A DNA stretch of 35,881 bases from Alphaproteobacteria bacterium (lineage in GTDB: Bacteria > Pseudomonadota > Alphaproteobacteria > Thalassobaculales > Thalassobaculaceae), in assembly GCA_013203465.1 (NCBI GenBank), contig JABMNR010000167.1, positions 1 through 35,881 on the forward strand, read 5' to 3'. Under the pieces are notes generated by a model. The model had not been told where the DNA came from. It did not search any database and was given only the letters and a program-made list of their open reading frames with translations. Numbering within the stretch: position 1 is the stretch's first letter; each line of letters begins with the position of its first letter. Shown piece after piece: positions 4,715-21,885 of the stretch. The translations under genes were made by a program, and so were the position numbers.

Positions 4715-5083
4715 ATGGCGTACGATCCGAACAACATCTTCGCGAAAATTCTGCGCGGCGAGATCGCCAATAAGACCGTGTACGAGGATGAGCATGCGCT
4801 GGCGTTTCATGACATCAACCCGCAGACGCCGACCCATGTCCTGGTGATCCCGAAGGGCGCCTATATCTCGTTTGCCGATTTCTCCGAGAAGGCCAGCGAG
4901 GCTGAAATTGCCGGATTTTTCCGCGCTTTAGGCAAGGTGGCCAAGGATCTGGGCACGGAAGAAGGCGGCTACCGCATCTTATCGAACCATGGCCGTGACG
5001 CCCATCAGGAAGTGGCGCACTTCCACATGCATCTGTTTGCCGGCAAGGATCTTGGGCGGATGATTAAACCGGCTGATAAATAG
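4715..5083 (+). CDS. hinT: HIT-family nucleotide hydrolase, HinT-like
   Basis: HIT proteins of the HinT group hydrolyse nucleoside phosphoramidates and acyl- or aminoacyl-adenylates. The 122-residue protein contains the histidine triad as EVAHFHMHLFAG (about residues 102-113), with the preceding NHGRDAHQE typical of HinT. The N-terminal IFAKILRGEI and ALAFHDINPQTPTHVLVIPK segments also fit. The ATG at 4715 has AATGGAGTGAACCG upstream, a clear ribosome binding site. It lies 33 nt after hisE and is probably in the same transcript, an arrangement I recall from other alphaproteobacteria. A hairpin-forming inverted repeat follows its stop. Confidence 0.93.
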   Translation: MAYDPNNIFAKILRGEIANKTVYEDEHALAFHDINPQTPTHVLVIPKGAYISFADFSEKASEAEIAGFFRALGKVAKDLGTEEGGYRILSNHGRDAHQEVAHFHMHLFAGKDLGRMIKPADK

Positions 5084-5105
5084 CGGTTCGATAACCAAGT
5101 CTATT

Positions 5106-5130
5106 AAGGATAACATATAAAATTATCCTT
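5106..5130. repeat. AT-rich inverted repeat downstream of hinT
   Basis: AAGGATAA (5106-5113) and TTATCCTT (5123-5130) are perfect 8-bp arms around a 9-base AT-only spacer apart from one C. With a one-base bulge the dyad extends to ATTAA/TTAAT outside. It sits 22 bases after the hinT stop and about 50 bases before a sigma-70-like promoter. It could be a weak terminator of the his transcript or an operator for the next gene. There is no clean T-run, so I prefer a protein-binding dyad, without proof. Confidence 0.5.
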
Positions 5131-5179
5131 TAATGCTGAGAATTTAGATGGAGTTGCTTTCTTTAGGCATTTGAGATTC

Positions 5180-5208
5180 TTGAGTTTTCTGGCGATCTGT
5201 CGTAATAT
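5180..5208 (+). promoter_or_regulatory. Sigma-70-like promoter of the pentapeptide-repeat gene
   Basis: TTGAGT (5180-5185), a 17-base spacer and TAATAT (5203-5208) form a good housekeeping promoter inside an island (5084-5260) that is far richer in A+T than the rest of the window. Transcription would start near 5215, leaving an untranslated leader of about 100 bases before the ATG at 5314. The remaining bases of this gap hold no gene that I can support. Confidence 0.55.
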
Positions 5209-5313
5209 TACTCAGGTTTTATCTGAATGTTCCATGTGTGGTGTATAGCAAGAATTGGGACCGCAAAATGTTGGGTTCCATGATGGGCGCACAACAGCGC
5301 TGGTGGGGACCAT

Positions 5314-6579
5314 ATGAAGCCGTCACAGGATTTAAGCTGGGACACCGCTGAAGCAGTCCGAAAACACAGCTTGTATTTGAACCAGTACAGTGGCGGTGCG
5401 CAGATCGATCTGCGGCACAAGACATTGCGCGGCTCCATGCTGGCGGGAGCCAATCTTGCCCAGGGTCTGTTCGCCGGGGCTGATCTGCGTGGGTCCACTT
5501 TCGCGGGCTGCAATCTCGAACGCACGATGTTCTCGTCCGCCAAACTCGAATCGGTGGATTTTTCCGGCGCCAAGCTGATGGGCGCCAACCTGCGCGGCGC
5601 CAACCTCAAGGGCGCCAAACTGATGGCCGCCGACCTGACCGACGCCGATCTACGCCCGGCCAAGATCCAGGATATGAACCGGACGATCGAGCAGACCGTT
5701 AATCTGTCGAGGGCCGACATCTCGGAGGCCAAGCTCGTCCGCACTAATCTGAGCGGCGCCAACATGTCCGGCTCGATCGCCGTGGGCACGTCGTTTCAGG
5801 CAACGGTGATGCGCAACGTCAATTTGAGCCAGGCCGATTTGTCGAAAAGCTCGTTCAAGGGCTCGGATTTGAGCGGCAGCAATCTGCGCGGGGTGAATTT
5901 CGCCGATGCGGTGCTGACCGACACGAACCTGACCGGCTCCGATCTGCGGTCGTGCAATCTCGACGGCGCCGATCTCTCGGGTGCCGATCTGACCGATTGC
6001 AAGATAGCCACCGGCCTCGATAAGGCGTCTGTAGACGTACAGCAGAAGGTGACCAGCCACTTCGCCTGGATCAGTTCCGGTGGCAAGAAGGGCGAGCGGG
6101 CGTCCTTCGCGGGCATGGATCTGAAGGGAGTGGATCTGTCCGGCGCCGATCTCTCGGCGGCGGATTTCACAGACGCCGATCTGTCGGGCGCCACCCTCAA
6201 GCAGTGCTCCTTCCGGTTCGCCAAGCTGACTGGTGTCCGGCTTGATGCGGCGGAGCTGTCGCGCGCCGATCTTCGTGGCGCCGATTTGCGGCGTGCGATG
6301 CTGGATGGTGCCACCCTGAACCACGCCCGGCTGAGCCCGATGCAGATCCTCAAGCCGTCAACGCTTGAAGTGATGCGCGAGTGGCCGGCCGATCTGTCCG
6401 AGGCGTCCCTGGTCGGCGCCAAGATGCAAAAGGCCGATCTGTCCGAGGCGGTGCTGACCAAGACCGTGTTCGATCACGCCGATCTGACCCATGCCGGGTT
6501 CACCGGCGCCGATCTATCGAGCGCCCGGTTCGAAGGCGCGACGGGCATGGCGCCGCCGGCGCTGTGCGTCGCCGAATAG
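5314..6579 (+). CDS. Large pentapeptide-repeat protein
   Basis: The 421-residue protein consists mostly of A(D/N)LXX-type pentapeptide repeats, which fold as a right-handed quadrilateral beta helix. Repeat blocks lie at roughly residues 37-117, 138-230, 261-345 and 370-410, separated by non-repeat linkers. Two related linker motifs precede the first and third blocks: HSLYLNQYSGG (18-28) and HFAWISSGGKKGERASF (249-265). They resemble the H-x-x-W-L-x-S-x-G-x-x-G-x-R-A element I recall preceding repeats in other pentapeptide proteins. There is no signal peptide or membrane segment, so it is probably cytoplasmic. Some family members mimic DNA and bind gyrase, but nothing here shows that role. The ATG has GGTGGGGACC upstream. 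The gene has its own AT-rich promoter region and stands alone. Function unknown. Confidence 0.93.
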   Translation: MKPSQDLSWDTAEAVRKHSLYLNQYSGGAQIDLRHKTLRGSMLAGANLAQGLFAGADLRGSTFAGCNLERTMFSSAKLESVDFSGAKLMGANLRGANLKGAKLMAADLTDADLRPAKIQDMNRTIEQTVNLSRADISEAKLVRTNLSGANMSGSIAVGTSFQATVMRNVNLSQADLSKSSFKGSDLSGSNLRGVNFADAVLTDTNLTGSDLRSCNLDGADLSGADLTDCKIATGLDKASVDVQQKVTSHFAWISSGGKKGERASFAGMDLKGVDLSGADLSAADFTDADLSGATLKQCSFRFAKLTGVRLDAAELSRADLRGADLRRAMLDGATLNHARLSPMQILKPSTLEVMREWPADLSEASLVGAKMQKADLSEAVLTKTVFDHADLTHAGFTGADLSSARFEGATGMAPPALCVAE

Positions 6580-6659: not shown

Positions 6660-6686
6660 CTTGCGTGACGGTTGGGGAGATCGGCC

Positions 6687-8207
6687 ATGGCCGCGCGGGT
6701 GGCGACGGTGGCGTTTCGTGGCATCGAGACCGTGGATGTGGACGTTCAGGTCCATGTCGGCAGCGGCGGCGGTTGGCCCGGGATCGGCATCGTCGGGTTG
6801 GCCGACAAGGCGGTGGGGGAAAGCCGCGACCGGGTCTACTCGGCATTGACCGCGCTGGGCCTGGCGATTCCGGCCAAGCGCATCACCGTCAACCTGGCCC
6901 CGGCCGATTTGCCGAAGGAGGGTAGCCATTTCGACCTCGCCATCGCCTTGGCGGTGCTGGTGGCGCTGGGGGCGTTGTCGGTGGAGGACGTTGCCGGCCG
7001 GGTGGTGATGGGAGAGCTGGCGCTGGACGGTCGCATCACACCGGTGTCAGGGGTATTGCCGGCGGCGCTCGCGGCGGCCGGGGCCGACAAGCGCGGGCTG
7101 ATCTGTCCCGAAGGCAATGGGCCGGAGGCGCGCTGGGCCGACGCATTGGAGGTGATCGCCGCCCCTGATTTGATGTCACTGCTTAATCATTTGCGCGGCG
7201 TGCAGATGCTGCCCGAGCCGCCCCCGGCGGTCGCCGGACCGGCGCCGCGCTATCCCGATCTGGCCGACATCAAAGGCCAGGAATCGGCCAAGCGGGCGCT
7301 GGAGGTGACGGCGGCGGGCGGGCACAATCTGCGCCTGATCGGCCCGCCGGGTGCCGGCAAGTCGATGCTGGCGGCGCGACTGCCCGGGTTGCTGCCGCCA
7401 TTGACTCCGGCCGAAGCCTTGGAGGTGTCGATGGTTCGTTCGGTCGCCGGGGCGTTGCCGGGCGGCCGGATCGACCGCGCCCGCCCGTTTCGTGACCCGC
7501 ACCATTCCAGCTCGATGCCGGCGCTGATCGGCGGCGGCACCCGCGCCAAGCCGGGGGAGGTGTCGCTGGCCCACCGCGGCGTGCTGTTCCTGGATGAGCT
7601 GGCGGAATTTCCACGCCCGGTGCTCGATGCCCTGCGCCAGCCGATCGAAACCGGACAGGCGGTGATCGCCCGGGCCAATCACCACGTCACCTATCCGGCG
7701 CGGTTTCAGCTGATCGCGGCGATGAACCCCTGCCGCTGCGGTCATCTGGCCGATCCGGACCGGGCGTGCCCGCGGGCGCCGCGCTGCGCGAGGGAATACC
7801 AGACCCGGCTGTCGGGACCGCTGCTCGATCGGTTCGATCTCACCGTCGAGGTGCCGGCGGTGACCGCCGCCGACCTGGCCCTGCCGCCGCCGGCCGAGGA
7901 CAGCGCGGTCGTAGCCCACCGGGTGGCGGCGGCCCGCGCCCGCCAGGTTGAACGGTATCGCACGCTCGACCCGGGCGGTGCGTTAACCAACGCCGAGGCC
8001 GACGGCCAGGTGTTGGCCGAGGTGGCGGAGCCGGACAGCGCCGGCGCCGAGCTGCTGCGCCGCGCCGCCGAGCGGATGAAGCTGTCGGCCCGGGGCTACC
8101 ACCGGGTGCTGCGGGTCGCCCGCACCCTGGCCGACCTTGATGGCCGCGAGGGGGTGTCGCGGGTCCATATCGCCGAGGCGCTGGGCTGGCGGCTGGTGGT
8201 GGAGTAG
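6687..8207 (+). CDS. comM: ComM/YifB-family AAA+ ATPase (Mg-chelatase-like)
   Basis: ComM (YifB) is a hexameric AAA+ helicase that promotes branch migration and integration during natural transformation; other bacteria carry it without known competence. The 506-residue product has an N-terminal ChlI-like domain (AFRGIETVDVDVQVHVGSG, PGIGIVGLADKAVGESRDRV). The ATPase follows, with Walker A GPPGAGKSM near residue 223 and Walker B LFLDELAEF. The CRCG...C...C zinc-like cluster (NPCRCGHLADPDRACPRAPRC) and the Arg-rich GPLLDRFDL complete the Mg-chelatase core, followed by the C-terminal lid domain (SARGYHRVLRVARTLADLDG). I place the start at the ATG at 6687, because GGGGAGA lies 6 bases upstream; a TTG at 6672 is the in-frame alternative. 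It stands between unrelated genes. Confidence 0.95.
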   Translation: MAARVATVAFRGIETVDVDVQVHVGSGGGWPGIGIVGLADKAVGESRDRVYSALTALGLAIPAKRITVNLAPADLPKEGSHFDLAIALAVLVALGALSVEDVAGRVVMGELALDGRITPVSGVLPAALAAAGADKRGLICPEGNGPEARWADALEVIAAPDLMSLLNHLRGVQMLPEPPPAVAGPAPRYPDLADIKGQESAKRALEVTAAGGHNLRLIGPPGAGKSMLAARLPGLLPPLTPAEALEVSMVRSVAGALPGGRIDRARPFRDPHHSSSMPALIGGGTRAKPGEVSLAHRGVLFLDELAEFPRPVLDALRQPIETGQAVIARANHHVTYPARFQLIAAMNPCRCGHLADPDRACPRAPRCAREYQTRLSGPLLDRFDLTVEVPAVTAADLALPPPAEDSAVVAHRVAAARARQVERYRTLDPGGALTNAEADGQVLAEVAEPDSAGAELLRRAAERMKLSARGYHRVLRVARTLADLDGREGVSRVHIAEALGWRLVVE

Positions 8208-9896: not shown

Positions 9897-10835
9897 CTAC
9901 ACCCTTGCCTCGATCGCGTCCCACAGCATCGCCGGGACGTCGATGCCGTCGAACCGGCTGAGTTCCTGGATGCCGGTGGGCGAGGTGACGTTGATCTCGG
10001 TCAGCACGTCGCCGATCACGTCGATGCCGACGAAGATCAGCCCGCGCTTTTTCAGCTCCGGGCCGATCGTCTCGCAAATCTCGTGATCGCGGGCGGTCAT
10101 GGCGCATTTCACCGCCCGGCCGCCGACATGCATGTTCGAGCGTGCCTCGCCCTCGGCCGGGATGCGGTTGATCGCGCCGACGCCCTTGCCGTCGATCAGG
10201 ATCACCCGCTTGTCGCCCTGGCGCACGGCGGGCAGGTATTGCTGGACGATGATCGGCTCGCGGTACATCTGGGTGAAGATTTCCAGCAGCGAGTTCAGGT
10301 TCTCATCAGCGGGGGTGATGTGGAATACGCCGGTCCCGCCATTGCCGAACAGCGGCTTGACGATGATGTCCTGGTATTCGGTGCGGAAGGCGCGGATTTC
10401 CTCGGGATCGTGGGTGATCAGGGTCGGCGGCATCAACCCCTCGAAATGGGTGACGAACAGCTTTTCCGGCGCGTTGCGCACCTCGGCCGGGTCGTTCACC
10501 ACCCGCACCTTGGGGTGGATATGCTCAAGAATATGGGTGGTGGTGATGTAGGACATGTCGAACGGCGGATCCTGGCGCAGCAGCACCACATCGACGGTCG
10601 CCAGATCGAGTGTCTCGCGGGCGCCCAGGGTGACGTGATTGCCCTGCTCGCGCCGCACCTGCATCGGTGCCGCCTTGGCGGTCACCCGGCGGTCCTTGAA
10701 GGTCAGGTGGCGCGGCAGGTAATGGGTTAGCCGGTGGCCGCGCCGCTGCGCCTCCAGCGCCAGGGCGAAGCTGCTGTCGCCGTTGATGTCCACGGTTTCG
10801 ATCGGGTCCATCTGGATTGCGACGTCGAGCGCCAT
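9897..10835 (-). CDS. gshB: Glutathione synthetase GshB
   Basis: GshB joins glycine to gamma-glutamylcysteine using ATP, the last step of glutathione synthesis. The 312-residue product has the usual length. The N-terminal domain opens with [26 protein letters not shown] (central Met-Asp-Pro typical of the family). The ATP-grasp part shows [41 protein letters not shown] and the Mg-binding end [21 protein letters not shown]. The ATG is preceded by AGGAGAACACCGC, a strong ribosome binding site. It is the last gene of a minus-strand group yraN, BON lipoprotein, SirB1-like and gshB. An intergenic gap of 96 bases separates it from the gene upstream. Confidence 0.98.

Positions 10836-18880: not shown

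Positions 18881-21885
<3,005 letters not shown>

Follow-up and report, generated by a model that had tools for sequence, protein, structure and literature searches.

A predicted two-module pentapeptide-repeat protein encoded between hinT and yifB in an alphaproteobacterial family, and a conserved element at its promoter

What might a long pentapeptide-repeat protein do whose gene stands alone between a his-hinT operon and yifB, and does the AT-rich DNA in front of that gene have a part in its control? In the window (the whole analysed stretch of 35,881 nucleotides), the gene order is hisF, hisE, hinT (4715–5083), a 230-base gap, the pentapeptide ORF (5314–6579, 421 codons) and yifB/comM (6672–8207); here and below, features are on the forward strand, except for the inverted repeat, which is given without strand. 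A sequence-only reading of this DNA had described a stand-alone gene for a 421-residue pentapeptide protein following the his-hinT operon, and this description holds. The ORF lies directly behind hisF-hisE-hinT, apparently has its own promoter, and matches Pfam Pentapeptide (PF00805) at E 4.5e-76 over nine stretches, its 250.3 bits against a cut-off of 20.2 placing it in the superfamily. The ORF list, Pfam and an AlphaFold2 model together describe a two-module pentapeptide-repeat (Rfr) gene, hereafter the PPR gene. A Shine-Dalgarno-like, purine-rich stretch, GGTGGGGA (5302–5309), ends 4 nt 5′ of its start codon. The neighbours were identified by synteny together with a profile match (hinT) or TIGR00368 (yifB, E 7.9e-153); judged by eye, the ATG at 6687 is a likelier yifB start than 6672. 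Further along the window, an in-frame TAG (20707–20709) interrupts an otherwise intact dnaK-like frame (ORFs 19876–20709 and 20749–21885). Since hinT and the PPR gene both terminate in TAG, this codon is an ordinary stop here, and the one in the dnaK-like frame is therefore likely a sequencing error or variant base.

Defining orthologs as matches at E up to 1e-110 in the genomes of the same alphaproteobacterial family (n = 36, own included), we found the PPR gene in 18 of 36. hinT was matched upstream at 17 of the 18 loci and yifB downstream at 17. Locus L021 starts near a contig end and apparently holds only the last hinT codons (by eye), and at L027 yifB is absent downstream of the ortholog. 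The hinT match at L018 (2971–3337, G022) consists of two overlapping pieces in different frames, likely a frameshift. In the genomes with no ortholog, ten stretches around hinT contain no PPR match adjoining it. The next sizeable ORF after hinT in G005, G006, G007, G010 and G016 resembles, by eye, the window ORF 9897–10835, which we take to be glutathione-synthetase-like, and in G009 a yifB remnant adjoins hinT. Across 11 pairs the dN/dS of the PPR gene ranged from 0.007 to 0.30, and the gene is under purifying selection; the ratio was above that of YifB in eight of nine pairs, so the PPR gene is mostly less constrained than YifB. We read it as a gene inherited within one alphaproteobacterial family and retained in its position between hinT and yifB; because it has the same place and its own promoter in relatives, it probably does a real job.

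The gene order could itself reflect that job, with the PPR protein working together with HinT or with the AAA+ protein YifB/ComM, and the near-constant flanks speak for this. However, hinT and yifB adjoin without a PPR gene in G019 and G081, so the interval can predate the PPR gene. In G026 and G030 yifB is interrupted while the adjoining PPR frame is whole, L027 has kept the PPR gene without yifB, and the PPR gene apparently has its own promoter. We regard such a partnership as very unlikely.

Two further observations concern these genomes. yifB/comM is split by about 2–27 kb in G026:C1, G030:C31, G039:C15 and G049:C1, and across two contigs also in G015 and G088, with the breaks falling near residues 215–237 or 306–315. 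In Acinetobacter, comM is an insertion site of AbaR islands; papers on such islands include PMC7508600. Separately, G011 and G020 (L089) are single-contig genomes of 1.5 Mb that carry the same genus label as relatives of 4.7–5.6 Mb; neither has a PPR match at E 1e-30, G020 has nearly 3 kb after hinT without an ORF of at least 100 aa, and the pair looks like a case of genome reduction.

The AlphaFold2 model of the PPR protein, built on 42 aligned homologs (mean pLDDT 91.9, pTM 0.80), displays two quadrilateral β-helix towers, each with a capping helix before it and one β-hairpin interrupting it. Cap 1 (residues 9–28, 5338–5397; from alignment, AlphaFold2 and hhalign) is made up of a helix (9–22 in the model) and H18...SGG, and is followed by tower 1 (residues 32–231, 5407–6006; from AlphaFold2 and VIA-align), with its hairpin at 116–127. 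Cap 2 (residues 240–258, 6031–6087; sources as for cap 1), with a helix at 240–254 in the model and H249...SGG, is followed by tower 2 (residues 264–410, 6103–6543; sources as for tower 1), with its hairpin at 343–357. A C-terminal helix at 414–420 is drawn at low confidence (pLDDT block means of 58 and 42 for residues 411–421 of the monomer model). Both towers match known Rfr structures, with VIA-align Z up to 29.7: HetL (PDB ID: 3du1) aligned mainly with tower 1 (Z 28.8, 214 aligned, 3.4 Å), and 2g0y with tower 2 (Z 16.9, 124 aligned, model 262–401), a tower that VIA-align's list barely probed. For the whole model, Foldseek TM-scores were low, the top row being HetL at 0.19/0.31 (E 1.5e-13, rmsd 16.9); the relative orientation of the towers is not fixed by the model.

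The sequence-only reading had reported repeat blocks broken by linkers, with two H-x6-SGG motifs, and had proposed structure prediction to see whether the linkers form separate domains. The breaks are reproduced by the model, in which caps and hairpins lie between β-helix coils, so that the linkers come out as capping helices and β-hairpins of two modules. Two motifs are indeed present, but their spacing differs from that given, being H18-x7-SGG and H249-x5-SGG. Comparing residues 6–238 with 239–421 by hhalign gave a probability of 100 and an E of 1.4e-43 across 168 columns. Because any two pentapeptide proteins align well, we place the weight on the non-repeat landmarks rather than on the E-value: H18/H249, the GG cap, the ADLRGA coil and the hairpins are in register between the halves. 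On this basis we interpret the protein, as modelled, as an internal duplication of one capped module, whose caps and hairpins are the linkers. The PPR gene is new as a two-module variant within the known pentapeptide superfamily. Among the matches listed, titles and abstract beginnings on pentapeptide repeats with hinT, alphaproteobacteria, Rhodospirillales genera or tandem/capping contain no two-capped group, in a coverage outside which subscription papers mostly fall.

Within its own genome the architecture recurs. A cap profile, whose training set holds six of the eight two-capped ORFs counted here, found two caps in 8 of the 10 other PPR ORFs (weakly in L078), one cap in one and none in a short signal-like one, with the weak PPR matches C105 and C172 outside the count; the gene is accordingly one of about nine two-capped paralogs. 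The C110-type paralog has 48% identity and two caps, but its locus is a different one, just behind an ORF that by eye is GntR/PhnF-like. In a tree of 33 chosen rows, one 100/100 clade unites the synteny group with the C110-type paralogs and excludes ten further pentapeptide proteins from the A1 set, leaving the synteny group by itself unsettled as a clade. Two two-capped paralogs lie in tandem at L072 (G000:C79), and neighbouring PPR matches on one contig are also seen in relatives, e.g. G027:C1 and G003:C169.

Conservation points to particular parts of each module. Six residues (H18, G28, G95, R114, G260 and G322) are invariant in 42/42 homologs, all picked as full-length relatives, and the second cap histidine, H249, is present in 98% of the 42. 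With outward faces assigned by repeat register, one face before each hairpin is conserved among the 18 orthologs (tower 1, 0.90, P 0.045; tower 2, 0.91, P 0.019). Run on the block before the hairpin in the full set of 42 homologs, the same test gave a weaker signal (P 0.11 and 0.21, respectively), and the blocks after the hairpins have no favoured face in the orthologs (P 0.51 and 0.83). The conserved faces bear R34/R94/R114 in module 1 and R301/R321 in module 2. The protein is weakly acidic (net charge −3, pI 6.12; −13 to 0 in the orthologs, n = 18), and its N-terminus, MKPSQDLSWDTAEAVRKH, has by eye no hydrophobic, signal-like stretch.

From these features we propose a cytoplasmic PPR protein of two homologous capped modules, each of which would comprise a His- and GG-bearing capping helix, some four β-helix coils that run to near the ADLRGA coil, a β-hairpin and further coils. 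The protein would form a rigid two-armed scaffold, with the conserved outward Arg face and adjoining hairpin of each module binding a partner. On balance, we think it probable that the PPR protein is a cytoplasmic two-armed binding scaffold of this kind.

The same fold is used differently by Qnr, MfpA and AlbG, and the PPR protein might likewise be a DNA mimic that binds and protects DNA gyrase or another topoisomerase. QnrB1 (Z 23.3, 200 aligned) and MfpA (Z 22.1, 179 aligned) both align by VIA-align, mainly with tower 1. Excursions from the helix are shared as well, as the available part of PMC8145042 describes loops in the β-helix of QnrB1, AhQnr and AlbG; for these three, the contrast that had been drawn with an uninterrupted Qnr helix is wrong. 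That the protein is not a Qnr/MfpA family member was nonetheless correct, since its scores fall below every Qnr/MfpA cut-off among the NCBIfam rows listed (Qnr 90.8 against 240, MfpA 100.5 against 360 and QnrB 76.3 against 460, with the other Qnr rows listed also under). It differs further in its tandem modules and in the cap before each tower, its acidity is weak, its most conserved faces carry Arg, and its C-terminal helix is of low model confidence, all of which makes topoisomerase mimicry quite unlikely.

Other known pentapeptide proteins offer partial likenesses to the scaffold that we favour. HetL, a heterocyst-differentiation protein and the top Foldseek row, is a single tower in a 237-residue chain, and the PPR protein scores 174.1 against the HetL cut-off of 260 (NF047416). 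It does pass the cut-off of the Alr5209 family (NF052603; 175.9 against 125, six stretches). Alr5209, with 129 aa and 16 repeats according to the available part of PMC7337050, is a single short tower, compared with 421 aa and two capped modules here, and we therefore put the pass down to repeat number, not orthology. YjbI of Caulobacter is also an alphaproteobacterial pentapeptide protein, but the available part of PMC12864828 describes it as secreted, with 183 residues and a signal sequence, whereas the PPR N-terminus is, by eye, not signal-like. At L079 2159–2704 (G000:C103) lies the gene of a short pentapeptide protein that resembles YjbI in kind and has a signal-like N-terminus.

The gap before the gene (5084–5313) had been called distinctly AT-rich, and is so: its GC is 0.40, whereas the window as a whole has 0.64, and no part of the window is richer in AT, all of the 15 most AT-rich 230-base stretches given overlapping it. 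Over the 17 hinT–PPR gaps measured, window included, GC is 0.39–0.59 and length 201–735 nt, five genomes of genus g2 having 723–735 nt against 201–359 in the other 12. In the seven other genomes searched, no DNA at the ortholog loci matched the gap. Within it lies a perfect 8-bp inverted repeat, AAGGATAA/TTATCCTT, with a 9-nt spacer (5106–5130, arms 5106–5113 and 5123–5130), which 3–4% of 200 dinucleotide shuffles equalled or bettered (P 0.03–0.04). Its presence is thus as reported, but it is not conserved with the gene, the arm pair occurring once in its own genome and upstream of none of the 17 other orthologs. These counts and the unmatched gap rule out the dyad as a conserved operator. The sequence-only reading had stated beforehand that it would fall if the gap were not conserved with the gene and the dyad were absent from close relatives; this is what we found for both, though not for the promoter.

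Dyads of other sequence are present at some orthologs. Those of L018 and L020 (10–11 bp) and of L021 and L024 (8 bp) lie upstream of the −35 box and beat shuffles (P 0.005 each), L023 has a borderline one within the leader (P 0.065), and in the remaining 12 of 17 the best gap dyad was no better than P 0.09. The g3 dyads, CCGRCATTT-N5-AAATGYCGG with ATTT-N5-AAAT in common, are close to the promoter. A search for them in four genomes, allowing up to two mismatches, located them at the PPR gene of G013 and of G022; G000 has a single site with two mismatches, at another place, and G002 has no site, so they are no dispersed element in these genomes. The dyad of the window may instead be a weak terminator or old hairpin of the his-hinT operon and not a PPR operator, a serious possibility that we place a little short of even. 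It starts 23 nt past the end of the hinT stop codon, and the sequence differences among dyads, with most relatives having none beyond shuffles, fit such an origin. Its stem, however, is AT-rich with no U tract behind, the terminator scan returned none, and the g3 dyads, being near the promoter, are operator-like.

For the promoter itself, TTGAGT-17-TAATAT (5180–5208, σ70-type), the sequence-only reading was right about the string. As many as 34 of 100 gap shuffles score as high, and a separate promoter scan of the window gave no promoter at 5180–5208. It is credible only because orthologs carry a promoter in a similar position: the best-scoring one ends 102–125 nt 5′ of the start codon in 15/18, including g2 with its approximately threefold longer gap. 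Aligning the orthologs on the −35 box, with hand-chosen anchors in 7 of the 18 rows (L025 and L026, which are g5, and five g2 rows), revealed a conserved promoter-upstream element, TA-N5-TTGA-N5-TTGA in the window (5164–5183), with the consensus A-N6-TG(A)-N5-TT(G/T)A. A(−15) at 5165 and T(−8) and G(−7) at 5172–5173 are identical in 18/18 and A(−6) at 5174 in 16/18, and most other columns upstream of the −35 box are variable. The distance from the element to the start codon downstream is 131–153 nt in 17 orthologs and 192 nt in one. In shuffle tests using one genus representative at a time, P did not exceed 0.004 when g2 was left out, or 0.006 when the set was limited to g1, g3, g12, g4 and g6; including g2 as scored gave a mean P of 0.032 and a maximum of 0.068.

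The strict element combined with a −10 box occurs at four places in 36 genomes, compared with three for the control; with the controls nearly as many, only the pair that are the PPR promoter counts. A still stricter pattern had no match. The loose TTGA-N5-TTGA gave 35 matches in six genomes against 21 for the reversed control, and many of the 20 loci inspected were within ORFs or on chloroplast-looking contigs; we rejected it as a general σ70 motif or the mark of a large regulon. Sites by carA-like (G004) and pyrG-like (G013) ORFs had seemed promising, but by eye the promoter arrangement is not clearly kept there. One AT-rich contig, G035:C8 (L108/L113), has ORFs that by eye resemble photosystem I and chloroplast ribosomal-protein genes, and is probably chloroplast DNA contaminating that assembly. 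Inspection by eye of five C110-type upstream regions did not reveal the PPR promoter element. The element seems to belong to this gene in particular and not to promoters in general, and is most likely a regulator site; the PPR gene would then be read from its own promoter, with a factor bound at the conserved upstream element.

Taking transcription to start 7 nt after the −10 box, the predicted 5′ leader spans 5215–5313, about 99 nt, close to the 100 or so bases first proposed and similar in length in most orthologs. This similarity would also suit a leader that acts as a structured RNA regulating translation, with the dyad and promoter incidental. Some leaders are clearly structured, five of the 18 having an MFE z of −2.9 or lower (L019 −4.7, L020 −4.5, L031 −3.8, L032 −3.1 and L028 −2.9) and seven of the 18 one below −2, and pairs changed on both sides are present in g3 (7/30), g2 (7/29), g12 (7/15) and g6 (6/27). 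The leaders of the window (z −0.37), L018 (−0.02) and L034 (+1.41), by contrast, are not among these. Of the 37 pairs in g5 none is changed on both sides, broken pair cells amount to 11/90 in g3, 19/145 in g2 and 6/60 in g12, and Rfam returned no match at gathering score. RNAalifold found no base pair in common over all 18 leaders, which confines this explanation to some genera; we consider a leader-based control unlikely.

What makes this locus interesting is its promoter element together with the module duplication, and not the dyad. A wider picture is possible, if doubtful: an expanded alphaproteobacterial family of cytoplasmic two-armed Rfr scaffolds, whose arms, each one copy of the duplicated capped module, would dock a partner on the Arg face by the hairpin, and whose hinT-linked copy has become fixed and may be switched by a gene-specific regulator at A-N6-TGA-N5-TTGA. 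With its fixed locus, predicted two-module architecture and six invariant residues, the PPR gene offers a tractable case, and its conserved promoter element could serve to fish out the regulator, and hence the condition in which the PPR protein is needed.
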